A stretch of 64,000 nt of DNA. Source: Mesorhizobium sp. PAMC28654. GTDB lineage: Bacteria > Pseudomonadota > Alphaproteobacteria > Rhizobiales > Rhizobiaceae. Under the pieces are notes generated by a model. That model was not told the origin of the DNA and did not search any database. It saw only the letters and a list, made by a program, of their open reading frames with translations. The stretch is from assembly GCF_020616515.1 (NCBI RefSeq), contig NZ_CP085135.1, forward strand, positions 3,224,001-3,288,000, given 5' to 3'. Position 1 is the stretch's first letter. Every line of letters starts with the position of its first letter. The position numbers were made by a program, and so were the translations under genes. Shown here one piece after another: positions 47,626-64,000 of this stretch.

Positions 47626-49137
47626 CTACATGGTGGCGCCGACCGACCACGGCACGAACTCGCTGTCGCCGTAGCCCAGCAGTTCGGATTTGGTGCGCTC
47701 GCCCGAAGCCACGGCGAGGATTTTCAGCAGGATCTCCTCTCCCTTGTCGGCCAGCGAAGCGCCATCGAGGACATCGCCGCAATTGAGGTCCATGTCCTCG
47801 ATCATCTTTTCATAGATCAGCGAATTGGAGGCGAGCTTGATCGACGGCGTCGGCTTGCAGCCGAAGGCGGAGCCACGGCCGGTGGTGAAGCAGAGCATGT
47901 TGGCACCACCGGCGACCTGGCCCGTCGCCGAGACCGGGTCGTAGCCGGGCGTATCCATGAAGACGAGGCCATTGGTCGTGACGGGTTCGGCGTAATTGAA
48001 GACGCCGGTGAGATTGGTGGAACCGCCCTTGGCGGCCGCCCCAAGCGACTTTTCCAGGATGGTGGTCAGGCCGCCGGCCTTGTTGCCCGGCGAAGGGTTG
48101 TTGTTCATCTCCATATTGTGCCGCGCGGTGTAGTCCTCCCACCAGCGGATGCGTTCGGCCAGTTTCTCGCCGATCCCGGCATTCTCGGCGCGACGCATCA
48201 AGAGATGCTCGGCGCCATAAATCTCCGGGGTCTCGGAGAGGATCGCCGTGCCGCCCTCGGCGACCAGCAGATCGACCGCGACGCCGAGCGCCGGATTGGC
48301 TGTTATGCCCGAATAACCGTCGGAGCCGCCGCATTGCAGCGCCAGCATCAGTTCCGAGGCCGGCGCCTGCGTGCGCTCGGTCTGGTTGACGACCGCGAGC
48401 ATGTCGTGGATGGCCTTGACGCCGGCCTCCACGGTCTTGCGGGTGCCGCCGACCTCCTGGATCGTCAGCGTGCGGAAGGTGGTGTCTTCGCTGATGCCAT
48501 AGGACTGCATCCAGCGCGGGATCTGGAAGGCTTCGCAGCCCAGCCCGACCATCAGCACGCCGCCAATGTTGGGGTTGGTGGCAAAGCCCCATTGCGTGCG
48601 CTTCAAGAGTTCATAGGCCTCGCCATGCGTGTCGAGGCCGCAGCCTGTGCCGTGCACCAGCGAGATGACGCCATCGATGTTCGGGTAATCGGCGAGAATG
48701 CCCGAGCGGTTGACCTGGTCGGCTATGAACCGTGACGCGGTGGCCGAGCAGTTCACCGAGGTCAGCACCGCGATGTAATTGCGCGTGCCGTATTTGCCGT
48801 TGGCGCGCCTGAAGCCCTGGAAGGTGCGGCGCCGCTCCGGCGCGACATAGCGCGTCGGCTTTGCGTCGACGCCGAACTGGTAGTCGCGGTCGAAGGCATG
48901 GAGATAGACATTGTGTTCGTGCACCCACGTGCCCGGCGCGATGTCCTCCCTGGCGAAGCCGATGACCTGACCGTATTTGACGATTGCTCCGTCCTTGGCG
49001 ATCGGCTGGACCGCCATCTTGTGCCCGCGCGGAACGCGCTGCGCGGCGGTGGCAGTCCCCACCTCGTCACCAGGGGACAGGGAGTCGATCGCCAGGACAA
49101 TGTTGTCGGCGTCTGTCAGTCGAATAGTGCGCGCCAT
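47626..49137 (-). CDS. UxaA/GarD-family sugar-acid dehydratase (candidate L-fuconate dehydratase)
   Basis: 503 residues with an N-terminal SAF-like domain (DNIVLAIDSLSPGDEV, VPRGHKMAVQPIAKDGAIVKYG) and a large C-terminal dehydratase domain (GFRRANGKYGTRNYIAVLTSVNCS, HGTGCGLDTHGEAYELLKR, LALQCGGSDGYSGITANPALG, SPGNKAGGLTTILEKSLGA, RGSAFGCKPTPSIKLASN). The family includes altronate and galactarate dehydratases, using iron or manganese. Here it would dehydrate the aldonic acid made by the lactonase, presumably L-fuconate, to 2-keto-3-deoxy acid. It converges with gntR and is divergent from the mutarotase gene. Confidence 0.9.
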   Translation of the reverse strand: MARTIRLTDADNIVLAIDSLSPGDEVGTATAAQRVPRGHKMAVQPIAKDGAIVKYGQVIGFAREDIAPGTWVHEHNVYLHAFDRDYQFGVDAKPTRYVAPERRRTFQGFRRANGKYGTRNYIAVLTSVNCSATASRFIADQVNRSGILADYPNIDGVISLVHGTGCGLDTHGEAYELLKRTQWGFATNPNIGGVLMVGLGCEAFQIPRWMQSYGISEDTTFRTLTIQEVGGTRKTVEAGVKAIHDMLAVVNQTERTQAPASELMLALQCGGSDGYSGITANPALGVAVDLLVAEGGTAILSETPEIYGAEHLLMRRAENAGIGEKLAERIRWWEDYTARHNMEMNNNPSPGNKAGGLTTILEKSLGAAAKGGSTNLTGVFNYAEPVTTNGLVFMDTPGYDPVSATGQVAGGANMLCFTTGRGSAFGCKPTPSIKLASNSLIYEKMIEDMDLNCGDVLDGASLADKGEEILLKILAVASGERTKSELLGYGDSEFVPWSVGATM

Positions 49138-49195
49138 GGTACCGTCGGGGTGTGAGAGAAGGCGCGACGGGAACTCTTGCCAACGCGCGTTATGG

Positions 49196-49213
49196 AAGAA
49201 TACTAATATAACA
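49196..49213. promoter_or_regulatory. Candidate GntR operator, copy 3, between dehydratase and mutarotase genes
   Basis: The site shares the core ACTAATATAA with copy 2 and ACTARTATAA with all copies (11 of 18 positions identical to copy 1). It lies 59 bases before the dehydratase start and 78 bases before the mutarotase start, so it could serve both. Confidence 0.55.
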
Positions 49214-49290
49214 GGCAGAAGCGGTCAAGGCGACAGGCTGCGTTTGGAGCCGCTTTGGCCCAACGCCTATTTGATTGAGGGAGCTTGAGA

Positions 49291-49620
49291 ATGACCCGCA
49301 TGGGCCTTTGCATCGGACTGAAGCCGGAGGTGATCGCGCACTACAAGGAACTTCACGCGGCGGTGTGGCCGGAGGTGCTGGCGGCGATCACGGCGGCGAA
49401 CATCCGCAACTATTCGATCTTCCTGCGCGAGCCTGAAAACCTGCTGTTCGCCACCTGGGAATATGTGGGCGGGGATTTCGACGCGGACATGGAATTGATG
49501 AAGCAGAACCCGGCCATGCAGGAATGGTGGACAATCTGCGATCCGCTGCAGCAGCCGCTCGAGACGCGGGCGCCCGGGGAATGGTGGGCACGGATGGAGC
49601 CGGTGTTCTTCCACGCCTGA
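49291..49620 (+). CDS. DUF718/RhaM-type sugar mutarotase (probable L-fucose mutarotase)
   Basis: 109 residues, the usual length. The sequence has the family's GLCIGLKPEVIAHYKELHAAVWPEVL (with the active-site His), NIRNYSIFLREPENLLFATWEYVGG and the C-terminal WWARMEPVFFHA. These enzymes interconvert alpha and beta anomers of L-rhamnose or L-fucose. The other genes of this cluster favour L-fucose. GAGGGAG lies about ten bases upstream of the ATG. It is divergent from the dehydratase gene and shares operator copy 3. Confidence 0.93.
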   Translation: MTRMGLCIGLKPEVIAHYKELHAAVWPEVLAAITAANIRNYSIFLREPENLLFATWEYVGGDFDADMELMKQNPAMQEWWTICDPLQQPLETRAPGEWWARMEPVFFHA

Positions 49621-49722: not shown

Positions 49723-50769
49723 TCAATCGTGCTTCGCGGCGCGCAACAGCATGCCGAAGAGGTCGCGCGGCTCGTCGGGATCGGCGAGCAGGTCAAGCTC
49801 CTCGTAGAGACCGGTACGGGCAAGCTGGTCGCGAACGTAGCGCAGCGCCGAGAAATCCTCGGTGGCGAAGCCGACGGAATCAAACAGCGTCACCGCCTGG
49901 TTGTTGACGCGCCCTTGGGCCGTTCCCGCCATCACCTCCCACAATTCGACGACGGCATGATCCAGATCGAGTTGCTGTATCTCGCCTTCGATGCGCGTCT
50001 GCGGCGTGTACTCGACGAAAATCTGCGAGCGCAGCAGGATGTCACGATGCAGTTCGGTCTTGCCGGGGCAATCGCCGCCGACCGCATTGATGTGGACGCC
50101 GCTGCCCACCATGTTGTCGGTGAGGATGGTCGCATACTGCTTGTCGGCCGTCACCGTGGTGATGATCTGCGCTCCCTCAACGGCGGCATGCGCCGAGGAA
50201 CAGGAGGTGATCTCAAACCCCAGCCCCGCCAGATTGTCAGCGCATTTGCGCGTGGCCGCCGGGTCGATGTCGTAGAGGCGCAGCTTGTTGACGCCGAGCA
50301 GCGCCTTGAAGGCCAGCGCCTGGAACTCCGACTGGGCGCCGTTGCCGATGATGGCCATGCAGTCCGCGCCCTTGGGCGCCAGGTACTTGGCGGCGACGGC
50401 TGACGTGGCGGCGGTGCGCAAGGCGGTCAGGATGGTCATCTCCGAAAGCAGCATCGGATAGCCGTTGCCGACATCGGCGAGAACGCCGAAGGCGGTGACC
50501 GTCTGGCGACCGTCACGCGTATTTTTGGGATGGCCGTTGACGTATTTGAAGCCGTAAAGCCGGCCATCGCTTGTCGGCATCAGTTCGATGACGCCGTCGA
50601 TGCTGTGCGAGGCGACGCGCGGCGTCTTGTCGAACAGCGCCCAGCGGCGAAAGTCCTCTTCGATATAGCCAGCGAGATCGGTGAGGAATCGGTCGACGCC
50701 GATGGCAAGCACCAGCTTCATCATGTGGTCGACGCTGACGAAGGGGACGATGTTCAGTCTGGCGGTCAT
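49723..50769 (-). CDS. Ornithine cyclodeaminase
   Basis: 348 residues, normal length. The N-terminal NIVPFVSVDHMMKLVLAIG, the substrate-binding KYVNGHPKNTRDGRQTV, the Rossmann segment CMAIIGNGAQSEFQALAF, LYDIDPAATRKCADNL and AVGGDCPGKTELHRDIL are those of bacterial ornithine cyclodeaminases, which turn ornithine into proline and ammonia with tightly bound NAD. It is three bases downstream of the arginase gene, giving arginine to ornithine to proline in two steps. The related mu-crystallin/ketimine reductase group is a less likely alternative. Confidence 0.93.
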   Translation of the reverse strand: MTARLNIVPFVSVDHMMKLVLAIGVDRFLTDLAGYIEEDFRRWALFDKTPRVASHSIDGVIELMPTSDGRLYGFKYVNGHPKNTRDGRQTVTAFGVLADVGNGYPMLLSEMTILTALRTAATSAVAAKYLAPKGADCMAIIGNGAQSEFQALAFKALLGVNKLRLYDIDPAATRKCADNLAGLGFEITSCSSAHAAVEGAQIITTVTADKQYATILTDNMVGSGVHINAVGGDCPGKTELHRDILLRSQIFVEYTPQTRIEGEIQQLDLDHAVVELWEVMAGTAQGRVNNQAVTLFDSVGFATEDFSALRYVRDQLARTGLYEELDLLADPDEPRDLFGMLLRAAKHD

Positions 50770-50772
50770 CGG

Positions 50773-51693
50773 TCAAAAGCTCCTGGTCGGCCGGTCCATG
50801 ATGCGGCGGCCCATCAGGCTTGCCGTCAGGTCGACCATCAGCGTGGCGGTGCGGCCGCGCTCATCGAGAAAAGGATTGAGCTCGACGAGGTCGAGACTGC
50901 TGACCAGGCCGCTGTCCGAGAGCATTTCCATGACCAGATGCGCCTCGCGGAACGTCGCGCCGCCCGGCACGGTCGTGCCGACCGCCGGCGCGATGGACGG
51001 ATCGAGGAAGTCGACGTCGAGACTGACATGCAGAAGGCCGTTTTCGGCCGTCACCCGTTCCAGGAAAGCCCGCAGGAGCGGCGCGATGCCATGTTCGTCG
51101 ATGGCGCGCATGTCGTGCACGGTGACGCCCGCGGCGCGCAGCGCCTGCCGCTCGGCCGGGTCGACGCTGCGGAGACCCAATGTGCAGATGCGGGCGGGGT
51201 CGACTCGCTCCGGCAGGTCGGGGAAATAGCCGTGGAAGCCGGGCTGGCCGCTGGCGTACGCAAGCGGCACGCCATGCAGATTGCCGCTGGCCGTCGTGTC
51301 GAGCGTGTGGAAATCCGGGTGCGCATCGAGCCACAGTACAAACAGGGGCCGGCCGACCTGGGCAGCGCGGCGGGCAATCCCCGAAAGGGTCCCAGCCGAA
51401 ATGCTGTGGTCGCCGCCGAGGAAGATCGGCATGGCATCGGCGCTGGCGGCATAGGCGGCGTCGGCGATCCCTGCCGTCCAGGCTGAAATCTCCGGCAGCG
51501 CCTTCAGCGCCAGATTGCCATGGGTGAGCGGGCGCATCGGCGCCGGCGCGATGGTGCCGAGATCGGCAACCGCATGGCCGAGCTCCCTCAGCGCACCGAC
51601 CAGCCCCGCCGTCCGCAAGGCACTCGGGCCCATTTCGCAGCCCATCCGGCCAGTGCCGTCCTGCACCGGCGCGCCCAATATATTGCAATTCAT
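50773..51693 (-). CDS. Arginase
   Basis: 306 residues from ATG 51693. Manganese motifs of the ureohydrolase family are complete: FLGGDHSISAG, WLDAHPDFHT, SLDVDFLDPSIAPAVGT and LNPFLDERGRTA. GAPVQDGTGRMGCEMGPSAL at the N-terminus and 306 residues fit true arginases rather than agmatinases. It hydrolyses arginine to ornithine and urea. It is co-transcribed with the cyclodeaminase gene and is divergent from an Lrp/AsnC regulator, which probably responds to an amino acid. No urease gene is nearby. Confidence 0.95.
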   Translation of the reverse strand: MNCNILGAPVQDGTGRMGCEMGPSALRTAGLVGALRELGHAVADLGTIAPAPMRPLTHGNLALKALPEISAWTAGIADAAYAASADAMPIFLGGDHSISAGTLSGIARRAAQVGRPLFVLWLDAHPDFHTLDTTASGNLHGVPLAYASGQPGFHGYFPDLPERVDPARICTLGLRSVDPAERQALRAAGVTVHDMRAIDEHGIAPLLRAFLERVTAENGLLHVSLDVDFLDPSIAPAVGTTVPGGATFREAHLVMEMLSDSGLVSSLDLVELNPFLDERGRTATLMVDLTASLMGRRIMDRPTRSF

Positions 51694-51824
51694 TCCGCCA
51701 CTCTCCGTCTGCAACGTCGAATAGGGTTGAACCGCATCTGCCCGGCGGAATGAATAGTACCGATTGGCAAAAGCAGCAGAAGTATTTATCATTTTGACAG
51801 ATCAGGCTGCCATATTGGACAAGC

Positions 51825-52262
51825 ATGGATTCCCTGGACGAAAAGCTCATCATGCTTCTGCGCCATAGCGCACGGCGAAGCATCTCCGATCTTGCGGCGG
51901 ACCTTGGCGTGTCGCGGGCGACCGCACGCGCACGAATGGAGCGCCTGGAACAATCCGGCGAGATCATCGGCTACACGGTGATCCTGCGCGCGGAATCCAT
52001 CGGCCCCGCCGTCAGGGGCATCATGATGATTGAGATCGAAGGGCATGCCGCCGATCGCGTGATCCGCACGCTTGGCGGGTTTCCAGAGGTCGCCACGATC
52101 CACACCACCAATGGCCGCTGGGACCTGGTGGTGGAGCTGAACACAGCAACCCTGACCGAGTTGGACGCGGTACTGCGGCGGATCCGGCTGGTGCCCGGGA
52201 TCACAGGCAGCGAGACAAACCTGCTGTTGGCCACGCCGCGCAGCACGAAAGCCCGTCTTTGA
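51825..52262 (+). CDS. Lrp/AsnC-family transcriptional regulator
   Basis: 145 residues. N-terminal helix-turn-helix: LDEKLIMLLRHSARRSISDLAADLGVSRATARARMERLEQSGEI; C-terminal RAM effector domain: VRGIMMIEIEGHAADRVIRTLGGFPEVATIHTTNGRWDLVVEL. Such proteins form octamers that bind amino acids. It is divergent from the arginase/cyclodeaminase operon with 131 bases between starts. By analogy with rhizobial and agrobacterial arginine-catabolism loci, it likely activates arginase in response to arginine or ornithine. Confidence 0.95.
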   Translation: MDSLDEKLIMLLRHSARRSISDLAADLGVSRATARARMERLEQSGEIIGYTVILRAESIGPAVRGIMMIEIEGHAADRVIRTLGGFPEVATIHTTNGRWDLVVELNTATLTELDAVLRRIRLVPGITGSETNLLLATPRSTKARL

Positions 52263-52331: not shown

Positions 52332-53495
52332 CTATTGCACCATGGCGCAAATGGTAAGCGCCGCCACCCGCGCGCGCTGCGCAAGGGTGGTGATTTCGAT
52401 GTACTCTTCTTCCGTATGAGCCTTGCCGCCGACCGGACCTACGCCGCAAATCGTCGGCGCGCCGGCACTTGCGGCGAAACCGGAATCGGCACAGCCGCCG
52501 GTGAACTCACCGGCAATATCGAGGCCGATGCTTCTTGCGATCTCGAGATAACGCCTGGTCAATTCCGCGCTCCGTGGCGTCGGGACGAGCGGGAAGAAGT
52601 CGCTGTCGCGGACGGCTTTCGTGCTTGTCCCCGCTACGGACGAATTTGCCATGATGGCATCGATCGCCTCGATCAAGGCGTCGCGCTGGGCATTGGTGAC
52701 GAACCGCACATCCACTTCGCCACTGGCCGTTGGCGCGACGGTGTTGACCGACACGCCGCCGCCGACAAGGCCGACATTCAGCGTCATGCCGTCGTCGACC
52801 CGCGTCAGCGCGTGCAAGGCGTTGATCTTGTGTGCAAGCTCGGCAATGGCTGACGCGCCTTCGGTGAAATTGACACCGGAATGCGCGGCCTTACCGGTAA
52901 TGTCGAAGCGATAGCTGAAGCCGCCCTTGCGACCGGTGACGATGTTGCCGCTGACGCGGCCGGGTTCGGAATTGAAGACAGCGACGGCGCATTTCGCTTC
53001 CGCCTCGATAGTGGGGCGTGCTGTCGCCGAGCCGATCTCCTCGTCGCCGGTCATCAAGGAGATCGCGGGAATTTCGGGGGCAAACCGCTTCAGCGCAGCC
53101 ATGACGAAGGCGTTCATGACAAGGCCGCCCTTCATGTCCGCGACACCCGGGCCATAGGCGCGGCCGTCACGGGTGCTGAACGGGCGACGCGCCGCCTCAC
53201 CCTTGCCAAACACCGTGTCGCGATGGCCCATCAGAAGATAATTGCGACGACCGGAATTGTGGCTCACCGGGCCGGTTTCGGCGCGCAGGATGTCACCGAA
53301 ATCAGCTACGGGGATCGTCGTCACGCAGATCGAATGCTCGGCATAAAACCGGGCCAGCCGCGCGCCGGCCCGGTCGACGCCGACCTTGTCATGGGAACCG
53401 GAATCGATATCGACCAGCTCGCCAAGCAGGGTCAGCATCGCGGGCGCCTGCTCATCGAGCCAGGCGGAAATGGCTTGGGACTTGTCGGTCGTCAT
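52332..53495 (-). CDS. M20-family metallopeptidase (glutamate carboxypeptidase/CPG2-like)
   Basis: 387 residues. Di-zinc site residues: His/Asp in LLMGHRDTVF (the usual H-x-D), bridging Asp in GVADMKGGLV, catalytic Glu pair in TGDEEIGS, Glu in FNSEPGR and the last His in GGKAHTEEEY. The lid domain (TGKAAHSGVNFTEGASAIAEL) is intact. It would remove an amino acid or acyl group from a small amide. It follows the amino-acid ABC ATPase gene by 59 bases and is the last gene of that minus-strand operon, so its substrate is probably what the transporter imports. No signal peptide. Confidence 0.92.
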   Translation of the reverse strand: MTTDKSQAISAWLDEQAPAMLTLLGELVDIDSGSHDKVGVDRAGARLARFYAEHSICVTTIPVADFGDILRAETGPVSHNSGRRNYLLMGHRDTVFGKGEAARRPFSTRDGRAYGPGVADMKGGLVMNAFVMAALKRFAPEIPAISLMTGDEEIGSATARPTIEAEAKCAVAVFNSEPGRVSGNIVTGRKGGFSYRFDITGKAAHSGVNFTEGASAIAELAHKINALHALTRVDDGMTLNVGLVGGGVSVNTVAPTASGEVDVRFVTNAQRDALIEAIDAIMANSSVAGTSTKAVRDSDFFPLVPTPRSAELTRRYLEIARSIGLDIAGEFTGGCADSGFAASAGAPTICGVGPVGGKAHTEEEYIEITTLAQRARVAALTICAMVQ

Positions 53496-53554
53496 GGGAG
53501 CGGTCTTCTCTTCGTGTCGAAGTGAGTCAGGCGTGATTGCGCATTCCCAGCGGT

Positions 53555-54331
53555 TCAGACATCGTCGCGATTCGTGGAGATGAACTTCTGGAACCGGGCC
53601 GATTTCGGGCTCTCGAACACCTCCCTGGCCGGACCATCCTCTTCGATCATGCCCTCGTGCAGGAAGATCACCCGGCTTGCGACATCGCGCGCGAACGCCA
53701 TCTCGTGGGTGACGATCACCATGGTGCGGCCCTCGTCCGCCAAGGCGCGCATCACCTTGAGCACTTCCCCCACCCGTTCGGGATCGAGCGCGGATGTCGG
53801 CTCATCGAACAGCATGAGTTCGGGCTTCATCGCCAGCGCGCGTGCGATTGCCGCGCGCTGTTGCTGGCCGCCGGACAGATGCGCGGGATATGCGTCGCGC
53901 TTGTCGGCGATACCGACCTTTGCCAGCAGCGCTTCCGCCTCGGCGACACACTCGCGGCGCGGCCGCCCCTGGACATGGATCGGCCCTTCGATCAGATTCT
54001 CCAGGACGGTCATGTGCGACCAGAGATTGAAGCTCTGGAAAACCATGGCGACACGCGCGCGCAGCGCATCGACCTGGCGGCGGTCGACGACGGCAAGCCC
54101 GTCGCGCTGCGGCTTGAGCTTCACAACCTCGCCGCCAACCACGATTTCACCGGCGCTTGGCATCTCCAGCAGGTTGATGCAGCGCAGCAGCGTACTCTTG
54201 CCGGAGCCCGACGATCCGAGGATCGCGATCACCTCGCCCTTTTTGGCATCGAACGAAATATCCTTCAGCACTTCGAGCGGGCCAAAACGCTTGCGCAGGT
54301 TGCGCACTGAAAGGGCTGTCTGGTCAGACAT
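53555..54331 (-). CDS. Polar amino acid-type ABC transporter ATPase
   Basis: 258 residues. Walker A AILGSSGSGKSTLLR, Q-loop AMVFQSFNLWSHM, signature LSGGQQQRAAIARAL and Walker B LMLFDEPTSALDPE, with EEDGPAREVFESPKS near the end: the HisP/GlnQ pattern. The ATG overlaps the preceding permease gene by eight bases. It energises the two-permease importer encoded just upstream. Confidence 0.96.
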   Translation of the reverse strand: MSDQTALSVRNLRKRFGPLEVLKDISFDAKKGEVIAILGSSGSGKSTLLRCINLLEMPSAGEIVVGGEVVKLKPQRDGLAVVDRRQVDALRARVAMVFQSFNLWSHMTVLENLIEGPIHVQGRPRRECVAEAEALLAKVGIADKRDAYPAHLSGGQQQRAAIARALAMKPELMLFDEPTSALDPERVGEVLKVMRALADEGRTMVIVTHEMAFARDVASRVIFLHEGMIEEDGPAREVFESPKSARFQKFISTNRDDV

Positions 54332-55049
54332 TGACCTTCTCCATTGTGTTCGATGACGCCGGCGGCGCGCGCAGGTGCGGCGTCAGCCACCAATCGAGCA
54401 GGCCGACCAGCCGCGTCAGGAGAAAATTGATGATGAGATAGATCGCGCCGGCGGCGATGAAGACTTCCACCGGACGATAGCTGGAGGAGATCAGGCGCGC
54501 GGCGATGCCGGTTACGTCCATCATCGTGATGATCGAGGCCAGCGAGGTCGCCTTGACCATCAGGATCAGTTCGTTGCCATAGGCAGGCAGCGCCTGGCGC
54601 AGCGCGATCGGCAGGATGATGCGCCGGTAGAGCAGTAGCCCGGACATACCACACGCGCGCGCCGCCTCGACCTCGCGCGAGGGGACCGATCGCAAGGCGC
54701 CGCGCAGGATTTCGCTGCCATAGGCGGCGGTGTTGAGCGACAGCGCCAGGATCGCGCACCAGTAGGGCTCGCGGAAGAATTGCCACAGGCCAAGGCTTTG
54801 CAATGTCGGGCGAAATTGCCCAAGGCCGTAGTAGATCAGGAATATCTGCACCAGGAGCGGCGTGCCGCGAAATAGGAAGACGTAGGCACGCGCCACCCAA
54901 TCCATGCCCCGGATGCCGGACATGCGCATCAAGGCCAGGAGAACGGCAAAGACCACGCCGATCGAAAAGGCGATGATCGTCAATTGCAGCGTCAGCGGCA
55001 CGCCAGCCAGTAGTTCGACGAAACTGTCGCGGATGAAGAGCAGGTCCAT
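54324..55049 (-). CDS. Polar amino acid-type ABC transporter permease (HisM-like)
   Basis: 241 residues from ATG 55049, which overlaps the previous stop as TGATG. It has the amino-acid permease blocks LLAGVPLTLQLTIIAFSIGV, YVFLFRGTPLLVQIFLIYYGL, NTAAYGSEILRGALRSVPSREVEAARACGM and the EAA-type loop up to ALPAYGNELILMVKATSLASII. About five membrane helices. It pairs with the 55049-55765 product as the heterodimeric pore. Confidence 0.95.
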   Translation of the reverse strand: MDLLFIRDSFVELLAGVPLTLQLTIIAFSIGVVFAVLLALMRMSGIRGMDWVARAYVFLFRGTPLLVQIFLIYYGLGQFRPTLQSLGLWQFFREPYWCAILALSLNTAAYGSEILRGALRSVPSREVEAARACGMSGLLLYRRIILPIALRQALPAYGNELILMVKATSLASIITMMDVTGIAARLISSSYRPVEVFIAAGAIYLIINFLLTRLVGLLDWWLTPHLRAPPASSNTMEKVNV

Positions 55050-55765
55050 CACGCCGCCTCCCGCCCCATGCTTCGCGAGGCCCGTTTTTCGAGCCAGTCG
55101 AAGACGCGTTGCGAAAGCCAGGTGATGACCAAGAACAGGACGGCGGCGATGAGGTAGAACTCGAACGGCTTGCGCGTGGAACCGGCGGCGATCTGCGCCT
55201 GCCGGAGGATCTCGACCAGCCCGGTCACCGACACCAGAGCCGATTCCTTCAAGGTCATCTGCCAGACATTGCCGATGCCGGGTATGGCGTGGCGCGCGAC
55301 CTGAGGCGCGATGATGCGGCGAAACAGGAGCAGGCGATGCATGCCAACTGCCTTGCCGGCCTCGATCTCGCCTGTCGAAAGGCTGCGAAAGGCGCCACGG
55401 AACACTTCGGCCTGATAGGCGCCGGAAACGACGCCGATGGCCGTGGCGCCGGCGATGAAAGGCGGGATGCCGACAAAGCCGCCGTCGCTCCAAAGCCGGA
55501 AAAGCGCCGACAAAAGCAGGCTTCCGCCGAAATAGAACAGATAGATGACCAGAAGATCGGGAACGCCGCGCAGCACCGTCGTATAGACATCGGCAAGGAT
55601 GCGCGCGGCCGTGCCGCCGGCAAGTTTTGCCCACGCGATCAGGCCACCGATGACGATGCCGAGCGCGAAGCCCGCCATCGCCACCATGATCGTCACCAGC
55701 GCGGCCAGGAGCAGGGCCTTGCCCCACCCTTCAGGCCCGAAGCCAACCAGATCCAGAAATTCCAT
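55049..55765 (-). CDS. Polar amino acid-type ABC transporter permease (HisQ-like)
   Basis: 238 residues. Blocks: WGKALLLAALVTIMVAMAGF, LADVYTTVLRGVPDLLVIYLFYFGG, GAYQAEVFRGAFRSLSTGEIEAGKAVGM and IPGIGNVWQMTLKESALVSVTGL. It forms the pore with the next permease. It starts 41 bases after the SDR gene, within the same minus-strand operon; the binding-protein gene is 3.5 kb away on the other strand at 59251. Confidence 0.95.
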   Translation of the reverse strand: MEFLDLVGFGPEGWGKALLLAALVTIMVAMAGFALGIVIGGLIAWAKLAGGTAARILADVYTTVLRGVPDLLVIYLFYFGGSLLLSALFRLWSDGGFVGIPPFIAGATAIGVVSGAYQAEVFRGAFRSLSTGEIEAGKAVGMHRLLLFRRIIAPQVARHAIPGIGNVWQMTLKESALVSVTGLVEILRQAQIAAGSTRKPFEFYLIAAVLFLVITWLSQRVFDWLEKRASRSMGREAA

Positions 55766-55806
55766 GTGCCGCTATCCCGTCATCCCGGCCCGTGACCGGC
55801 CTGACC

Positions 55807-56556
55807 TCATACGTTGAACTGGAAACCGTCAACCGTCAGCGTCTGCCCGGTCATGAAGCAGGGCTGCGACGTCGCAAGAAAGGTCACCAGGCGCGCCACG
55901 TCGTCGGCGCATCCAAGCCGCCCAAGCGCAATGCCCTTGATGACCTCGTCGGCACGCTCCGTCACATTCGTATCGATCTCGGTGCGAATGACGCCGGGGC
56001 AGATCGCGTTGATGGCGATGATGGGGCCCAGTTCCTTCGCGAGCGCCCGCGTCATGCCGAGAATGCCGGCCTTGGCGGCGGCATAGGCGAAGCGGCTGAC
56101 CGCCGCCGTGACGCCGCCCGAAAGCGCGTTGAGCGACGACATCGACACGATGCGCCCTCCACCCTGCTTCAGCATGTGCGGCGCCGTGTGTTGGATATAG
56201 TTGAAGCAGCTCTTGAGATTGATGGCGATTACCCGGTCGAACTCGTCCTCGGTGATGTCCAGGATTCCTTGCGGCGAGGACCGGCCGGCATTGTTCAACA
56301 GGAAATCGACGCGTCCGAAACGGGCAATCACCTCGCTGACGACCTCGCCGGCCCGCTGGTGGCTGGCCACATCCGCGACGAAAGTCTCGGCCTTGACGCC
56401 AAGTGCCGCGATCTCGCCGGCCGTCGTTTTCAACTCGTTTTCGAGCAGGTCGACGAGGGCGATGTTGTAGCCCGAGCGAGCCAGATCCAGCGCGCAGGCC
56501 TTGCCGATACCGCGCGCCGCGCCGGTGACAATGGCCGTCTTGTGTTGTGACTGCAT
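55807..56556 (-). CDS. SDR-family oxidoreductase
   Basis: 249 residues. NAD(P) motif TGAARGIGKACALDLARSG, NNAGRSSPQGILDI, catalytic Ser in SMSSLNALSGG and Tyr-Lys in YAAAKAGILGM, with CPGVIRTEID. It is the first gene of the transporter-peptidase operon, divergent from the IclR gene. An Asp after the second strand (IALVDLLEN) favours NAD(H). It probably oxidises or reduces a hydroxyl/keto group on the imported compound or its breakdown product. Exact substrate unknown. Confidence 0.92.
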   Translation of the reverse strand: MQSQHKTAIVTGAARGIGKACALDLARSGYNIALVDLLENELKTTAGEIAALGVKAETFVADVASHQRAGEVVSEVIARFGRVDFLLNNAGRSSPQGILDITEDEFDRVIAINLKSCFNYIQHTAPHMLKQGGGRIVSMSSLNALSGGVTAAVSRFAYAAAKAGILGMTRALAKELGPIIAINAICPGVIRTEIDTNVTERADEVIKGIALGRLGCADDVARLVTFLATSQPCFMTGQTLTVDGFQFNV

Positions 56557-56628
56557 TCTCGAAACTGCTCCTTTTCAACGTCTTCTCAGCATGGTATGGC
56601 TCCACCGATATTCTTCAATAGGAATATG

Positions 56629-56644
56629 GTTCACATATATGAAC
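56629..56644. promoter_or_regulatory. IclR operator candidate, copy 1 (SDR/IclR divergent promoter)
   Basis: GTTCACATATATGAAC has exact 5-bp outer arms (GTTCA/TGAAC). Its reverse complement matches the element at 59120-59135 at 15 of 16 positions. It overlaps the IclR start codon (56639-56641) and lies 73 bases upstream of the SDR start. Confidence 0.7.
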
Positions 56645-57427
56645 AAAACTGGTGACTCTGACGTCAAATCCGCGGTACGGGTTCTGGAAATCCTGGAGCT
56701 TCTGGCCCGCTCTCCAAAGGCGTTGTCGCTGAAGACGATCGTCGCCGAGCTTGGCTATCCCAAGAGCAGCACGTTCAATCTTCTGGCGACGCTGGTGTCG
56801 CGCGCCTATGTCCTGCGCGACGAGGCGGACGCCTACCGGATCCACGATGCTTTCCGAAACGGGCCGGGGTGGTCGAGCGGCGACGAAGCGCAGCTCATAG
56901 CCACCGCACAGCCGCTGATGGATGCGTTGCGCGACGCCGAGGGCGAGACCGTCTTTCTCGGCGCGCGCCGCAAGGATGGCCGCGTCAAGCTGCTGGCCAA
57001 GAGCGCCAGCCATCGGGCGATCCGCTTCGATTCCGACCTGACCGGCTCCGACCCCGCCTTTTGCACGGCGATGGGGCGGGTGCTGCTTTCGCATTGGCGA
57101 CCCGACAAGGTGGCGGCCTATCTGGCACGCGAACGCATCGTGCAGATCACCGACCACACCGTGATTGATCGCGTGCAGATCCGCAGGATCATCGAGGCCG
57201 CCCGCGACAATGGCTATGCCATCAGCGACCAGGAGGCCATAACCGGCGGATCGGGCGTGGCGGCGCCCGTCCGCGACGCCACCGGCGAAGTGGTCGCGGC
57301 CCTCAACATCGCCACCATATCGCCCCGCTTCGACGCCTGCCGCGATCGCATGATTGCCGCGATGATCAGGAACGCGGCCGAGCTCAGCCACAGGCTCGGC
57401 TACAAGGAAACGACGAAAGATCAATAA
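56639..57427 (+). CDS. IclR-family transcriptional regulator
   Basis: 262 residues. N-terminal winged helix: VKSAVRVLEILELLARSPKALSLKTIVAELGYPKSSTFNLLATL; C-terminal effector domain: GETVFLGARRKDGRVKLLAKS, DPAFCTAMGRVLLSHWRPDKV, GYAISDQEAITGGSGVAAPVRDATGEVVAALNIA. The ATG at 56639 gives a normal N-terminus, but the operator palindrome covers it, so transcription may start at or near the ATG (leaderless). It is followed after one base by a second SDR gene. It probably governs the operon on each side and the binding-protein gene. Confidence 0.94.
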   Translation: MNKTGDSDVKSAVRVLEILELLARSPKALSLKTIVAELGYPKSSTFNLLATLVSRAYVLRDEADAYRIHDAFRNGPGWSSGDEAQLIATAQPLMDALRDAEGETVFLGARRKDGRVKLLAKSASHRAIRFDSDLTGSDPAFCTAMGRVLLSHWRPDKVAAYLARERIVQITDHTVIDRVQIRRIIEAARDNGYAISDQEAITGGSGVAAPVRDATGEVVAALNIATISPRFDACRDRMIAAMIRNAAELSHRLGYKETTKDQ

Positions 57428-57428
57428 T

Positions 57429-58190
57429 ATGGATATTCATTTCGAGGGACAGCGCGTGCTGGTGACCGGTGCCGCGCGCGGCATCGGGCGTTCGATCTGC
57501 GAGAGCTTTGCCGCCAATGGCGCGGCCGTGATTGCCACCGACATCAATGAAGACGCGCTGAAGCCTTTGCTCAGCGAGGCAAGGCCCGCGCGCGGCGGCT
57601 CGTTAGCCGGCGAACGGCTGGATGTCACCGACGAAACCGACATCGCGGCGGTCGTGGGCGACAACGGCTTCGACATCTTCGTGCATGTCGCCGGCGGTGT
57701 CCTCGGCCAGGCCCGCAAGCCCGTAGAAGACGTTTCCGCGCGTGACTGGGATCGCATCTACGACGTCAATGTCCGCGGCGCCTTCCTAGTCGCGAAGGCG
57801 GTGGTCCCAGCCATGAAGCGCAAGCGCAGCGGCAAGATCGTCCACATATCCAGCGGTGCGGGCCTGGGCGTCAGCCTGACCGGCATCCAGGCCTATGCCA
57901 GCGCCAAGGCCGCCCTCATCAGCCTGACACGGCAGCTGGCTCATGAACTGGGACCGTTCGGAATCAACGTCAATGCGGTTGCCCCCGGCTTCCTGCGCAC
58001 CAGCCCCGACTATGAGCGGCAATGGGCGTCCTATGGCGAAGACGGGCAGCAGGCGATGATCAATTCCATCCCGCTGCGGCGGATCGGATTGCCCGAGGAT
58101 ATTTCCAACGCCGTGCTGTTCCTGGCTTCGCCCTTGGCCAGCTGGATTGCCGGCCAGACCTTGTCCGTCAGCGGAGGGCCAACCCTGTGA
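57429..58190 (+). CDS. SDR-family oxidoreductase
   Basis: 253 residues. TGAARGIGRSICESFAANGAAV (NAD site, followed by ATDINE), HVAGGVLGQARKPVEDV, SSGAGLGVSLTGIQAYASAKAALISL (Ser, Tyr, Lys) and APGFLRTSPDYERQW. It starts one base after the IclR stop and overlaps the deacetylase-family start as GTGA. With the SDR at 55807 it makes two dehydrogenases in one regulon, possibly for successive or stereochemically opposite oxidations. Confidence 0.93.
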   Translation: MDIHFEGQRVLVTGAARGIGRSICESFAANGAAVIATDINEDALKPLLSEARPARGGSLAGERLDVTDETDIAAVVGDNGFDIFVHVAGGVLGQARKPVEDVSARDWDRIYDVNVRGAFLVAKAVVPAMKRKRSGKIVHISSGAGLGVSLTGIQAYASAKAALISLTRQLAHELGPFGINVNAVAPGFLRTSPDYERQWASYGEDGQQAMINSIPLRRIGLPEDISNAVLFLASPLASWIAGQTLSVSGGPTL

Positions 58191-59092
58191 GCAGCACGAA
58201 CGAAACCCTTATCCCGACCTGGACCTGGCCCGAAGAACGGTTGCAGACGATCATGAACCGCGCCCGTGCCGGGCGGAGCCTGAAACCCGAAAGCTGGCCG
58301 GAGGGTGGCGCCTGCGCCGTGGCGCTGTCGTTCGATTCCGACCACGACACGTTCGAACTGCGCGATGGCGGCCGCTCGATCTCGGCTCTGTCGCAGGGCC
58401 AGTTCGGCCCCCGGCAAGGCATTCCGCGGATCCGCCGCCTGCTAGCCCGCGAGAGCATTCCGGCGACCTTCTTCGTCCCCGCCGTTTCGGCGATCCACTA
58501 TCCCGACGAACAGCGGGAGCTGATCGCGGGCGGTCACGAGATCGGGCTGCATGGCTGGATCCACGAGCGCAACACCTTGCTGGATGCACAAACGGAACGC
58601 GACCTGCAAATGCGCGCGGCCGACACGCTCGAACAGATCACCGGCGTGCGCCCTGTCGGCATTCGCACCCCCTCGTGGGATTTCAGCGACAACACATTGC
58701 GCATCACCGCCGACATGGGGCTGCTCTACGACTCGTCGCTGATGGCCGACGTCGATTGCTACGAGCTTCTGCTCGACGGCAAGCCCAGCGGCGTCATCGA
58801 ACTGCCGGTGGAATGGATCCGCGACGATGCCGCCTATCTGGTCATGGATCGCTGGGGTGGGCTGCGGCCGCAGATCGCGCCACACGACATCCTGAAGATC
58901 TTCATCGCCGAGTTCGACGCCGCTTTCGACGAGGGCGGTATTTTCCAGCTGACCATGCATCCCGACATTATCGGCCATCGCTCGCGGATCTGGATCGTCG
59001 AGGCGCTGATCGCCCACATACGGAACCGCGGCAAGGTCTGGTTCGCCACCCACGCGGATGTCGTTCGCCATGTCAAAGCAAGCCGCGCCTGA
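58187..59092 (+). CDS. Polysaccharide-deacetylase-family (NodB-fold) hydrolase
   Basis: 301 residues from GTG 58187, with GGAGGG eight bases upstream. The NodB-fold motifs are AVALSFDSDHDTF (Asp pair), GGHEIGLHGWIHERN (His-x-x-x-His type metal site), GIRTPSWDFSDNTLRI and FQLTMHPDIIGHRSRI. There is no signal peptide, and length and motifs resemble the cytoplasmic HpPgdA/PuuE/cyclic-imide-hydrolase branch rather than secreted chitin deacetylases. In this context, beside an M20 peptidase and amino-acid transporter, it may hydrolyse a cyclic or acyl amide. Substrate unproven. Confidence 0.9.
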   Translation: MSSTNETLIPTWTWPEERLQTIMNRARAGRSLKPESWPEGGACAVALSFDSDHDTFELRDGGRSISALSQGQFGPRQGIPRIRRLLARESIPATFFVPAVSAIHYPDEQRELIAGGHEIGLHGWIHERNTLLDAQTERDLQMRAADTLEQITGVRPVGIRTPSWDFSDNTLRITADMGLLYDSSLMADVDCYELLLDGKPSGVIELPVEWIRDDAAYLVMDRWGGLRPQIAPHDILKIFIAEFDAAFDEGGIFQLTMHPDIIGHRSRIWIVEALIAHIRNRGKVWFATHADVVRHVKASRA

Positions 59093-59119
59093 CGAACAAA
59101 TAGCAGAAAGCTGAACCAG

Positions 59120-59135
59120 GTTCATGTATGTGAAC
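59120..59135. promoter_or_regulatory. IclR operator candidate, copy 2 (upstream of the binding-protein gene)
   Basis: GTTCATGTATGTGAAC is a near-perfect palindrome, differing by one base from the reverse complement of copy 1. It lies 115 bases upstream of the binding-protein start and 27 bases after the deacetylase stop. Confidence 0.7.
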
Positions 59136-59250
59136 ATGATTCTGCTTTTCAGGCGCGGAAAGCCATATCAAGGTTGGTGTTGAGCTTCCCGGTGCTCCTC
59201 TCCAGGCGACCGGGGTCCGACTTCAACCTGGGAACGAAAAAGAGAAAACA

Positions 59251-60093
59251 ATGGCCTCAAGATCATCGCTGGCAGCCGCGCTTGCCATCATTGCATTGCC
59301 TCTGCTGGGCGGCGTCGCCACGGCAAAGGACTGGAAATCGGTTACCGTTGGCGTCGAAGGCGCCTTCCCGCCCTTCAACTCCGTGAACGCGAGCGGCGAG
59401 GTCGAAGGGCTCGATCTCGACGTCATGAAGGAAGTCTGCAAACGCGCCGCACTTGATTGCAAGATCGTGGTGCAGGATTGGGATAGCCAGATTCCGTCGC
59501 TGCTGGCCGGAAAGTTCGACGTGGTTCTGACCATGGGACCCAACCCCGAGCGCCGCAAGGTCATCGACTTCTCCGATCCCTACGTCATTACGCCCAACAC
59601 GTTCCTCGTGCCCGCCGATGGCCCGCTCGCCAACCTGCCCCACACGGGGGAAAGATTGTCGACCGATACGCCGGAAGGCCAGAAGGCCGTGGCCGACCTC
59701 AAGGAAGCACTGAAGGGCAAGACGCTTGGCGCCTCGCTGTCCACGAGCCAGTTGCAGTTCGTCGAGGAGAACTTTGCCGGCGCCGTCGAAGTCCGGACCT
59801 ACAAATCAGCCGAACAGAGCCACCTCGATCTCGAGGGCGGCCGCATCGATGCGCAGTTCGACAATGTCGTGTTCGTCAATGATCGCGCCAAGGGCAGCAA
59901 TGGCGCGTTGAAGGCCAGCGGCCCGTTGCTGACGGGCGGCATCATGGCCACCAATGTCTGCCTGGGCATCCGCAAGGAAGAGCCTGAGCTCAAGGCAATC
60001 CTCGACAAGGCCGTCGAGGAAATGCGCGTTGACGGTACGTTGGCCAAAATCTCCGAAAAGTGGTTCGCGATGGATTTGAGCCCGCAGAAATAA
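59251..60093 (+). CDS. Periplasmic binding protein of a polar amino acid-type ABC transporter
   Basis: 280 residues with a signal peptide (LAAALAIIALPLLGGVATA, cleavage near AKD). Family markers: VTVGVEGAFPPFNSVNASGEVEGLDLDVMKEVCKRAALDC, DWDSQIPSLLAGKFDVVLTMGPNPERRKVIDFSDPY and LKAILDKAVEEMRVDGTLAKISEKWF. The fold binds amino acids or opine-like compounds. It is the missing receptor for the permeases at 54.3-55.8 kb although transcribed in the opposite direction; a shared IclR-type palindrome supports that link. Confidence 0.94.
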   Translation: MASRSSLAAALAIIALPLLGGVATAKDWKSVTVGVEGAFPPFNSVNASGEVEGLDLDVMKEVCKRAALDCKIVVQDWDSQIPSLLAGKFDVVLTMGPNPERRKVIDFSDPYVITPNTFLVPADGPLANLPHTGERLSTDTPEGQKAVADLKEALKGKTLGASLSTSQLQFVEENFAGAVEVRTYKSAEQSHLDLEGGRIDAQFDNVVFVNDRAKGSNGALKASGPLLTGGIMATNVCLGIRKEEPELKAILDKAVEEMRVDGTLAKISEKWFAMDLSPQK

Positions 60094-60104
60094 GACCTAG
60101 GGCG

Positions 60105-60131
60105 GCGGTGCAAGTGCTTACGTTGCACCGC
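60105..60131 (+). terminator. Hairpin after the binding-protein gene, possible terminator
   Basis: GCGGTGCAA (60105-60113) and TTGCACCGC (60123-60131) form a perfect 9-bp stem around a 9-base loop, 12 bases after the stop codon. Only a weak AATTTAT follows rather than a T-run, so it could be a terminator or a 3'-end stabiliser. Confidence 0.5.
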
Positions 60132-60233
60132 GCTCCAATTTATCAGCCAGCCCGGATAGCCCAACCAACTCGGCGACCAAAGCGCGCCGCGTCGAAACCG
60201 ATTCATGCGACGCGCTTTTGGATCTTTTGTTTT

Positions 60234-61638: not shown

Positions 61639-64000
61639 TCAGAGCCGCGAAATAAGATAGCGCAGCGCGGACCGGCTCGGCATGAAGAAATATCCGCCTC
61701 CCCGCGTGGTGATGAATTTCGGAATGCCTTTCAGCACGGTGACCTTTTCCCATGACGGGATGGTGAAACTGCCGCCGCGATGCTTGCCAATCATCGGGTC
61801 CCTTTCGTCGACGAGGCCCTGGAACGAGGCCGACGACACCCAGGTCTGCTGGATGAATTCGTATTGGCGCTCGATGTCGGCGTTCAGGCACATGAAGAGC
61901 AGGCCCTTCTCGACCGCGTCGCCCTTCTTGTCCTGCTTCTCATAGCTGCGACCCACGCGGATGATCCGGTGGCGCTTGCCGATCTGGATCTGCGTCTCAT
62001 GGTCTTCGCCCAGTGAATCGCGCGGATTGGACCGACGGACATGGGCACCCAGCGGACAGCGATGCCCTTGCGGATCCTCGACGCCAAAGGCGTAGTCATT
62101 GTCGACGCTGCGTCCCGGGCGACCGTCGGGATTGCGCACCAGCGAACTGCCATCGGGCCAGCGGCCAAGCATCTTGGCGGCAACCCAGCGCGGCGTAATA
62201 GCCGGGTTGTGGGTATCACTTGCCGCCTGCGTGGCCGCGGTCTTGCAATAGTCATGGAAGGCGTCGACGTGCTGCTCGAGTTGGCGCAACACAATGAAGG
62301 TGCCGTTGCGACCGAAATCGTGAGGTGATGGCGGCTGACCGGGGATGATGCGGTTGTGGCGCACCGCCGGGAGGATGCCGTCGCGATCTTGTGACGCCTG
62401 GACCCAAGGCGATGCCGGATAGAAGCCATGTTCATCGCGATAGCCGAACAGAAACTCGCCCGGCGCCACCAGATGCATCGGCGCGGTGCCGGCTTTGGCG
62501 CGCGTGGTTCCGATGACGATCGGCTGCGAAACTCCGTCGACAAAGCCGAAATGCTCGAGCGACTTCTTGCCGTCGCGTATTACCATCAAAGGCAGTTGCG
62601 CAACCACTGTCATGCCCGCAGCCACGACCCTTTGCTTGATGGCAGCGATCTCGGCTTGCAGCAGCTCCTGGCTTTCAGCGTAGCAAACGACCGCCAGGTC
62701 CACTGGCTTCTCATGCGAGCCCCATTCCCATTTCTCTGGCGCGCTGTCGCCGAGATCATTGAGAATGCGACTGCGCTTAGGGTTGCCCATGCCGTGGCGA
62801 AACGCAGCCGGAAATGAATCGAGGGGATCGGCATCGACGCCGCCGTCCAAGCCCAGGTGCTTGAGGCCATTGGGGCCGAACGCCACCGTCATGGCGCGCG
62901 CCGACGGGACGCCATCGCCGAAACTCGTTTTCTCAACGACAAATTCCAGCCAGGCTTTGCGGCTGACGCTGGAGAGATTGTCGGGAACGGCGATGCCCAG
63001 CATATGGGCATGGCCCAGCGAGCCGAACGGACCAAAGAAAATGGACTGGATCTCACCGGTTTCCAATTGCTCCACGGCTGGCGGAGCAGGCGTGAAGAGG
63101 CTGATCGCCGCCCCGGCTGGCTCCGTGTGCGGGCGCGGCAAGGATCCGAACAGGCCCAGCCAGTCACGCGCTTCGCTGCCGGCTGCGCCGGCGATACCTC
63201 GCCTTATCTGGGAATTGGCGCGGATACGGACCGTGTTGAGATCGTGATAGGCCGAATACCAGAACAGGGTCGGCACCTGCTGCCGCCGCGCCCAGCGCTT
63301 GAAACGATCAGCGTCGCGCGCGCCATCGAGAAACAGCCAGCGGGTCCGCGGATACCCTAGAGTGTTGCTCCACACGCCGGTCAGGCCGGCGGCCGCCTTG
63401 GCGATGAAATCCTCGAGGTAGCTTTCCCAGCTGCCGCCGTAGTTGGAAAAGAACACAAGCTTGTTGGTGCCAGGCACCAGCACCCAGCGGGCGAAGTGGA
63501 TGGTGTTGATGTTGGCGAGGAACCCCGGCTTGAAGACTTTCTTGGCCGAGATGGAGATAAGGTAGAACGAAAACCTGAGCGCCAGCCACCGCAAGGTTCC
63601 AGGCTTCATGGTCGAGATCGCCGTCAAATGGTTCTGGGCGAAGTGATCCTCGTGGGCGAGGATCTTGTTCAGGGCGATGAGGTCGATCGCGGTGTTGTCA
63701 GGACGGTCGCTGTTTTCGAGCCGCCTCAAGGCAAGGAAACAAACCCCGAGGAAGAGCGCCGTCAAAGCCAGAAGCCCGAGCACGGCCAACAGTAGCGCAA
63801 CGCCGGCAATGATGACGGTGCCCAAAGTGATGCCGGCCGGATCGCCGAACACGTGCACGTAGATCGCCCATGTAAAGACGAGCACGATCACGAAGACGGC
63901 GGCAAGCATTGGCGGCGCCAGCAGCGTCGTGGTTATGGCTTGCCACCACTTTCCGGGCGGGTCTTCGAGCAGGCTTTCAGCCGGCTCGAACGCCCATGCG
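61639..64000 (-). CDS. Membrane-anchored DyP-type haem peroxidase, 5' end cut off by window edge
   Basis: The 787 in-window codons are open to the right edge, so the start is outside; ATG 63909 is only an internal methionine. After WAFEPAESLLEDPPGKWW come two hydrophobic helices (around codons from 63910 and 63840), then a domain of roughly 230 residues I do not recognise (HFARWVLVPGTNKLVFFSNY, YPRTRWLFLDGARDADRFKRWA). The C-terminal DyP domain has the GxxDG motif in EHFGFVDGVSQP, the probable haem-ligand His in LGAHVRRSNPRDS, and LLFMCLNADIERQYEFIQQ. DyPs oxidise dyes, phenolics or haem with H2O2. A membrane anchor and long N-terminal domain are unusual for the family. Confidence 0.9.
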   Translation of the reverse strand, partial: AWAFEPAESLLEDPPGKWWQAITTTLLAPPMLAAVFVIVLVFTWAIYVHVFGDPAGITLGTVIIAGVALLLAVLGLLALTALFLGVCFLALRRLENSDRPDNTAIDLIALNKILAHEDHFAQNHLTAISTMKPGTLRWLALRFSFYLISISAKKVFKPGFLANINTIHFARWVLVPGTNKLVFFSNYGGSWESYLEDFIAKAAAGLTGVWSNTLGYPRTRWLFLDGARDADRFKRWARRQQVPTLFWYSAYHDLNTVRIRANSQIRRGIAGAAGSEARDWLGLFGSLPRPHTEPAGAAISLFTPAPPAVEQLETGEIQSIFFGPFGSLGHAHMLGIAVPDNLSSVSRKAWLEFVVEKTSFGDGVPSARAMTVAFGPNGLKHLGLDGGVDADPLDSFPAAFRHGMGNPKRSRILNDLGDSAPEKWEWGSHEKPVDLAVVCYAESQELLQAEIAAIKQRVVAAGMTVVAQLPLMVIRDGKKSLEHFGFVDGVSQPIVIGTTRAKAGTAPMHLVAPGEFLFGYRDEHGFYPASPWVQASQDRDGILPAVRHNRIIPGQPPSPHDFGRNGTFIVLRQLEQHVDAFHDYCKTAATQAASDTHNPAITPRWVAAKMLGRWPDGSSLVRNPDGRPGRSVDNDYAFGVEDPQGHRCPLGAHVRRSNPRDSLGEDHETQIQIGKRHRIIRVGRSYEKQDKKGDAVEKGLLFMCLNADIERQYEFIQQTWVSSASFQGLVDERDPMIGKHRGGSFTIPSWEKVTVLKGIPKFITTRGGGYFFMPSRSALRYLISRL

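Follow-up and report, generated by a model that had tools for sequence, protein, structure and literature searches.

Gene layout and operator palindromes

The window analysed here, by which we mean the whole stretch of 64,000 nucleotides from Mesorhizobium sp. PAMC28654 (contig NZ_CP085135.1, positions 3,224,001 to 3,288,000), carries between 52332 and 60093 a gene cluster that, as far as sequence comparison can tell, is a real and conserved regulon of an IclR-family regulator, and whose substrate is probably a cyclic amide-type amino compound. The gene content given in a preliminary description of this DNA, namely an amino-acid-type importer, an M20 peptidase, two short-chain dehydrogenases/reductases (SDRs), an IclR protein and a NodB-fold protein, was recovered as stated with Pfam and NCBIfam models. 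The features of the cluster are as follows.

52332 to 53495, minus strand: M20 metallohydrolase, carboxypeptidase G2 (CPG2)-like (Pfam; 118 bits to CPG2)
53555 to 54331, minus strand: PAAT-type ATPase (ABC_tran, HisP-like)
54324 to 55052, minus strand: PAAT-type permease 2 (BPD_transp_1, ArtM/HisM-like)
55049 to 55765, minus strand: PAAT-type permease 1 (BPD_transp_1, HisQ-like)
55807 to 56556, minus strand: SDR1, predicted NAD-dependent dehydrogenase, divergent from IclR (Pfam)
56629 to 56644: operator 1, GTTCACATATATGAAC, between the divergent SDR1 and IclR genes; it overlaps the start codon of the latter
56639 to 57427, plus strand: IclR-family regulator (HTH_IclR and IclR_C), presumed autoregulator (Pfam)
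57429 to 58190, plus strand: SDR2, predicted NAD-dependent dehydrogenase (Pfam)
58187 to 59092, plus strand: NodB-fold (CE4-type) hydrolase of the imidase-like clade, GTG start (Pfam)
59120 to 59135: operator 2, GTTCATGTATGTGAAC, 115 bp upstream of the binding-protein gene
59251 to 60093, plus strand: periplasmic binding protein (SBP_bac_3), closest to NocT/OccJ (Pfam and structure-sequence match)

The two near-identical palindromes of the preliminary description were found at the expected places, and GTTCACATATATGAAC differed from the reverse complement of GTTCATGTATGTGAAC at 1 of 16 positions. When the window was scanned with up to three mismatches, five matches were obtained (each palindrome on both strands, plus one more) where 0.74 were expected, and none of 100 shuffles reached five. 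The whole genome (6,701,426 bases in one contig) was then scanned with the degenerate form RTTCAYRYRYRTGAAY, which occurred perfectly at exactly two places, both at this cluster, and with one mismatch at five further places; the looser GTTCANNNANNTGAAC gave six places, the two palindromes and four others, against none for the reversed control. A regulon reaching beyond the two sites was rejected, the perfect operator matches being limited to these two places.

The SDR1 start codon at 56556 (minus) and the IclR ATG at 56639 are separated by 82 bp, and the first palindrome runs over that ATG. Given this layout, operator 1 could act on the transcripts running in both directions, and operator 2 on the binding-protein gene. 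From SDR1 through permease 1, permease 2 and the ATPase to the M20 gene, the gaps on the minus strand were 41, -4, -8 and 59 bp, and the M20 gene is probably the last gene of the SDR1 transcript. On the plus strand the SDR2 and hydrolase genes overlap by 4 bp, and 158 bp lie between the hydrolase and the binding-protein gene. A search for consensus promoters in 56400-60200 was uninformative, with 0 matches against 0.9 expected. Both IclR domains were present in the regulator, whose best NCBIfam model, BhcR, fell far short of its cut-off (127.7 against 350).

Conservation of the regulon among relatives

An initial set of hydrolase relatives comprised the best 120 of 7999. Relatives for locus comparison were collected with an alignment of 14 hydrolases (A1), which gave at least 595 stretches, 568 of them confirmed; the best 80 were kept, so that the counts describe the closest relatives. 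Together with plasmid loci L115 and L116 these make up 82 loci, and with L107-L116 they make up 90; on the plasmid side 10 regions were examined among 30 records with a match, two lacking annotation. The IclR query used in the comparison began two codons after the ATG. A 300-base check, made for these two only, showed that L130 repeats L042 and L135 repeats L050.

SDR1, IclR, SDR2 and the hydrolase occurred together in 22 of the 82 loci (hereafter core loci), and 20 of these, all except L080 and L084, also carried the binding protein. The SDRs and the hydrolase were the most constant part of the cluster. An operator with at most one half-site mismatch stood at the start of the IclR gene in all 24 loci compared, 21 of them exact, against 0.5% and 0.08%, respectively, in Markov controls. 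Upstream of the binding-protein gene it was present in 17 of 20 loci, 7 of them exact, against control rates of 1% and 0%, and was not found at that threshold in L027, L036 and L042. It was kept even where the binding-protein gene was inverted, in five of six such loci (L037, L038, L045, L115 and L116, not L042). Since related genomes are not independent, the Markov controls overstate the significance of these figures. Judged from coordinates, four further IclR loci, L131-L134, likewise carry a site with no more than one mismatch close to the start of IclR.

The preliminary description had set lack of conservation of the palindromes, beforehand, as an outcome that would tell against a single IclR regulon; across relatives the palindromes proved to be kept, and the single regulon is supported. 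Palindromes with at most one mismatch were otherwise scattered in the relative loci at a chance-like level, and some preceded other genes. For example, perfect GTTCAATATATTGAAC palindromes precede an unrelated gene in the Brucella-type loci L030 (17895), L031 (17906) and L032 (17793), and may be sites of another regulator.

The enzymes were conserved at their expected catalytic positions. SDR1 kept Y158, K162, S140, S141 and D36 in 27 of 27 loci, and SDR2 kept Y156, K160, S142 and the presumed cofactor aspartate D38 in 28 of 28; for both, the top NCBIfam model was a glucose 1-dehydrogenase subfamily, with a score slightly below cut-off. The M20 protein scored 226.3 with the glutamate carboxypeptidase model PRK06133, short of the cut-off of 349, and in all 4 orthologous loci it retained H91, D93, D120, E152, E153, E177 and H360, which we take to be metal ligands. 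The M20 enzyme had been counted as a member of the regulon; it is present here but is no fixed part, an orthologue being found in 4 of the 82 relative loci, 3 of them core loci.

The regulator itself was rare. Among sampled genomes it occurred in 3 of 397 from the order and in 5 of 385 from the class, both counts including the own genome and at most six candidates per genome being scored. Among near relatives, a hydrolase match with E<=1e-40 was present in 25 of 101 genomes, and the best outside the own genome reached 59% identity. Five near-relative contexts were mapped, L117-L119 from the same genus (L118 covering 8.3 kb) and L121 and L122 from the same order, with L120 outside the comparison; no orthologue of SDR1, IclR or the binding protein was present in these five, and SDRs at 26-35% identity were their sole cluster-like matches. 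The module is sporadic and perhaps mobile.

The NodB-fold hydrolase

By sequence, the nearest solved structures to the hydrolase were 3rxz (169 bits), HpPgdA (3qbu, 115 bits) and PuuE (76-78 bits), followed by the PuuE-like structure 3s6o at 67 bits, and all others scored 43 bits or less. Fold comparison gave the same picture, with query-normalised template modelling (TM) scores of 0.69-0.72 for 3rxz, HpPgdA, PuuE and 3s6o and 0.57 or less for the others shown. By both searches HpPgdA and PuuE are nearer to the hydrolase than the sugar deacetylases are, and the hydrolase groups with HpPgdA and PuuE, relatives of cyclic imidases, as judged by sequence and fold; HxnM and the Pseudomonas putida imidase were set beside it by description only. 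Identity to the nearest solved members was 22-34%. Three specific identities were rejected on their curated models, namely PuuE allantoinase (TIGR03212, 72.1 against a cut-off of 424.6), NodB chitooligosaccharide deacetylase (TIGR04243, 33.4 against 240) and PdaA (27.6 against 298).

The NodB motifs DxD and HxxxH are present as D50, D52, H122 and H126, presumably the metal and base residues, and these four together with R160, R212, D213, D214, R227 and H258 were found in 82 of 82 loci. Such invariant residues, along with the three arginines, would suit an anionic small substrate. A second set of residues divided the family: W223, D260 and H264 occurred in 20 of 20 loci with a NocT-type binding protein, whereas among the other 62 hydrolases, L080 and L084 included, W223 and D260 occurred in none and H264 in 6. 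As this split tracks the NocT-type binding protein, the hydrolase and the binding protein appear to have diverged together. The acid at position 260 would suit a basic side chain.

According to the available text of PMC3084791, HpPgdA showed no activity towards the compounds tried there, allantoin among them, and a small molecule is presumed to be its ligand; PMC9304392, in its available part, describes it as a relative of cyclic imidases.

The binding protein

The best solved matches to the binding protein were a NocT M117N chain (203 bits), another NocT chain (200) and OccJ (178); weaker matches followed at 127 bits for the next structure, 107 for HisJ and 62 for the deoxyfructosyl-amino-acid binding protein. 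In NocT numbering its pocket reads E36, F39, F42, W77, G97, R102, T115, N117, S165, T168, S169, Q170 and N207. The pocket alignment covered 18 of the 20 relative binding proteins (L115 and L116 left out), together with a differing L030 paralogue; between the window and the 18 relatives the pocket differed only at position 165, where 16 of the 19 proteins have S, two have A and one has P, and at position 168, where one has S. Brucella-type L030 has at 2528-5691 a second, different importer copy, whose binding protein is 38% identical to that of the window, beside the retained NocT-like one.

Neither opine-import signature is matched in full. Nopaline import was rejected since the NocT signature G97, M117, H170, S207 reads G, N, Q, N here, and octopine import since only N117 and N207 match the OccJ set S97, N117, A170, N207 given in the available text of PMC4192606. 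The residues for a carboxylate and a stacked side chain were kept. In HisJ and LAO, as that text describes, a free alpha-amino group is held by Ser and Asp contacts; these are Gly97 and Asn207 here, from which we would expect an N-substituted or ring-closed ligand. The same source reports that NocT binds the lactam pyronopaline better than nopaline.

Variant clusters and nearby amide hydrolases

The same IclR switch was found at the head of other gene sets. HyuA-HyuB-SDR2-hydrolase clusters with a dipeptide-type importer and SDR1 were present in L080, L084 and L107, and further IclR-linked HyuA/HyuB clusters in L046, L050, L132, L133 and L135; the HyuA of L080 was closest to caprolactamase, yet scored 454 against a cut-off of 1000. 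L135, from the same genome as L050, has an M20D amidohydrolase. No hydrolase match was present within the examined stretches of L132 and L133, the contig of L133 ending there. L134 carries IclR, SDR1 and the hydrolase. In L131 an IclR relative (54%) stands with weakly matching HyuA/HyuB and PAAT genes, and the examined stretch gave no NodB-fold hydrolase match; this is perhaps a related switch for another cyclic amide.

Amide hydrolases recurred around the hydrolase homologues. In the Brucella-type loci L030-L034, L039 and L041 an M20D match lay within 6.5 kb of the hydrolase; in L030 it lies between the permease and SDR1, and the protein passes TIGR01891 (258.8 against 153.75). Mesorhizobium soli L037 and L038 have an isoaspartyl-peptidase-like gene in the locus. 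Outside the IclR group, hydrolase homologues stood with an SDR, creatininase and isoaspartyl peptidase in L109-L111 and with SDRs and penicillin acylase in L108; others, mainly from beta-proteobacteria, stood with a Gfo/Idh/MocA oxidoreductase, TctC and a GGT-like protein. Among the 90 loci, GGT-like proteins occurred in 31 and Gfo/Idh/MocA proteins in 34. Sets of Gfo/Idh/MocA, TctC, hydrolase and GGT-like genes recur in beta-proteobacterial L049, L055, L065 and L091, and such sets point to a second, probably distinct pathway using the same hydrolase family. In all, at least one of nine amide or lactam hydrolase types lay within 6.5 kb of the hydrolase in 54 of 90 loci. The SDRs and the imidase-like hydrolase stood together in 22 of 82, and one of the nine types was near 14 of these 22, the types being self-picked and the counts without a background rate.

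Substrate and proposed pathway

In the scheme that we propose, the IclR regulator, probably a repressor, would bind two copies of GTTCA(N6)TGAAC. Operator 1 would control two divergent transcripts, SDR1-permeases-ATPase-M20 and IclR-SDR2-hydrolase, and operator 2 the separately transcribed binding-protein gene, and an inducer would release IclR from both. The imported molecule would be a carboxylated, N-blocked or ring-closed compound of amino-acid type, possibly derived from arginine or ornithine. SDR1 and SDR2 would use NAD to oxidise hydroxyl or carbinolamide positions, the NodB-fold hydrolase would open the ring at a C-N bond and, where present, the M20 enzyme (in relatives M20D or another amide hydrolase) would cleave the resulting amide.

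That the regulon imports a carboxylated, ring-closed (lactam-, imide- or hydantoin-like) compound of amino-acid type, oxidises it with NAD and opens the ring by hydrolysis is, in our estimate, evenly balanced between holding and failing. The preliminary description had suggested a cyclic or N-acylated hydroxy amino compound; at the level of class only, a cyclic amide-type compound agrees with the imidase-like character of the hydrolase, with a pocket resembling that of NocT and with the lactam and amide hydrolases that recur near homologues. A more specific form, which we put forward tentatively and as less likely than not, would be a bacterial route, so far undescribed, for a ring-closed (lactam or imide) opine-like derivative of a basic amino acid, with NocT-related capture, oxidation by two SDRs and opening by a NodB-fold imidase with a co-diverged W223/D260/H264 pocket, the IclR switch and operator recurring with other importers and amide hydrolases (M20, M20D, HyuAB).

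Several observations weigh against the ring-closed reading. The structure model of the hydrolase was of moderate quality (mean predicted local distance difference test score, pLDDT, 72.9), and target-normalised TM scores of small sugar deacetylases reached 0.75. The HyuAB-linked and beta-proteobacterial hydrolases differ from that of the window at W223/D260, so those contexts may concern other substrates, and for many homologues, chiefly beta-proteobacterial, neither an IclR nor an SDR match was obtained. Of the nine amide hydrolase types, none was near the hydrolase in 36 of 90 loci (9 with less than 3 kb of flank) or in 8 of 22 core loci (L027, L035, L036, L042, L045, L103, L115 and L116), and the types had been chosen from these same loci. 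The binding protein has S in place of Q165, the guanidinium contact of NocT, which makes an arginine side chain uncertain.

The CPG2-like M20 enzyme, a binding protein nearest to opine-binding proteins with OccJ-like N117 and N207, and the GGT-like, penicillin acylase and M20D proteins near homologues would also suit an open-chain N-acyl or opine-type amino acid, in which case the NodB-fold and M20 enzymes would be deacylases and the SDRs would process the hydroxyacyl part. We regard this as unlikely: the hydrolase is far from the NodB and PdaA models and nearest to imidase and allantoinase relatives, and HyuA/HyuB in the IclR-linked loci L046, L050, L080, L084, L107, L132 and L133 points to cyclic amides, with the caution that the hydrolases of those variants differ at 223 and 260.

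Another account starts from the genes that adjoin the cluster.

49723 to 50769, minus strand: ornithine cyclodeaminase (above NCBIfam cut-off)
50773 to 51696, minus strand: arginase (above NCBIfam cut-off)
51825 to 52262, plus strand: Lrp-type regulator (named by eye)

The interval 52332 to 60093 of the preliminary description holds the cluster and leaves out this block (49723-52262). Both enzymes exceed curated NCBIfam cut-offs, and at E<=1e-15 the genome has no arginase match besides this gene. The block is also linked in L027 (Tianweitania) and in L037 and L038 (M. soli), its orientation or side differing among these loci and the window. Linkage in three arrangements is in our judgement unlikely to be due to chance, few as the loci are (3 of 82); it hints that the pathway product may be arginine or ornithine, and a functional link to the regulon may be supposed. 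From this linkage and the arginine-type pocket residues of the binding protein, the whole could be read as an ordinary island for arginine and ornithine uptake and catabolism, the importer feeding arginase and cyclodeaminase and the SDRs and hydrolase being incidental. Such a reading is quite improbable, as the block is kept in only 3 of 82 relative loci and no perfect operator flanks it in this genome, whereas within the cluster the SDRs and the hydrolase vary least, and G97 and N207 replace the Ser and Asp contacts for a free alpha-amino group (PMC4192606, available text). A sugar-amine pathway (Amadori or amino-sugar conjugate), with the SDRs oxidising polyol carbons and the NodB-fold enzyme removing an acetyl group, would agree with the glucose 1-dehydrogenase models of both SDRs and with the sugar deacetylases in the fold family of the hydrolase but is very improbable, since the deoxyfructosyl-amino-acid binding protein matched at 62 bits against 203 for NocT, the hydrolase clade is that of HpPgdA and PuuE, and neither a sugar kinase nor a deglycase was recognised by eye in the core.

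Returning to the ring-closed substrate, the regulon is sharply bounded by its two operators, and a small screen could find its inducer and substrate. It also gives access, from genome data, to proteins labelled 'polysaccharide deacetylases' that probably hydrolyse rings in small molecules. Were the ligand an opine-type lactam or an arginine-derived cyclic adduct, it would be a nutrient for which, as far as our literature searches show, no bacterial pathway of such kind is known.

Two neighbouring features of the window were noted by eye. A UxaA-type dehydratase and a RhaM-like mutarotase lie beside the regulon at 47626-49620 and point to a sugar-acid pathway, and an open reading frame of 756 aa at 61639-63909 resembles a membrane-anchored DyP-type peroxidase.

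Comparison with known systems

Four systems come close to the regulon in one part or another. The Agrobacterium noc/occ systems supply the closest solved binding proteins, NocT and OccJ, with Glu36, Trp77 and Arg102 kept (PMC4192606, available text), and Asn117/Asn207 of the window's protein are those of OccJ; they differ in the nopaline signature, where G-M-H-S is G-N-Q-N here, and no opine oxidase was recognised in the window core. Opine catabolism has arginase and ornithine cyclodeaminase nearby, as here. Opine systems presumably use other regulators, and the window cluster has IclR instead.

The group of PuuE, HpPgdA and the P. putida imidase shares with the hydrolase the fold, the DxD and HxxxH motifs, the size and, by eye, the lack of a signal sequence, and differs from it in sequence (22-34% identity to the nearest solved members), the P. 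putida imidase being compared by description. Caprolactamase CapA/CapB and the hydantoinase/oxoprolinase family are represented by HyuA-HyuB-SDR2-hydrolase in the IclR-linked variants; they are absent from the window cluster, and the hydrolases of those variants lack W223/D260. Literature text searches on imidase, hydantoinase, caprolactamase and MG-H1/hydroimidazolone topics, largely judged from titles, gave no like bacterial regulon.

The nearest described chemistry is the HxnW-HxnM-HxnN segment of Aspergillus nidulans, as far as the available part of PMC9304392 describes it. There, HxnM resembles HpPgdA in structure and shares 64% identity with a P. putida imidase homologue. Its proposed role is the opening of 3-hydroxypiperidine-2,6-dione, with a polyol-dehydrogenase-type enzyme acting before it and an amide hydrolase after it. 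The preliminary description had held that no described pathway has this set of genes. This needs qualifying, since Aspergillus nicotinate catabolism is described as using an SDR, then a NodB-fold cyclic imidase and then an amide hydrolase, which gives the chemistry a precedent; it stands for the importer and the M20 enzyme, the like of which are absent from that part of the source. The hxn system is moreover eukaryotic, controlled by HxnR and directed at a nicotinate-derived substrate (PMC9304392, same part), whereas the window cluster combines a pair of SDRs with a PAAT importer and an M20 enzyme, the comparison with HxnM being by description only.

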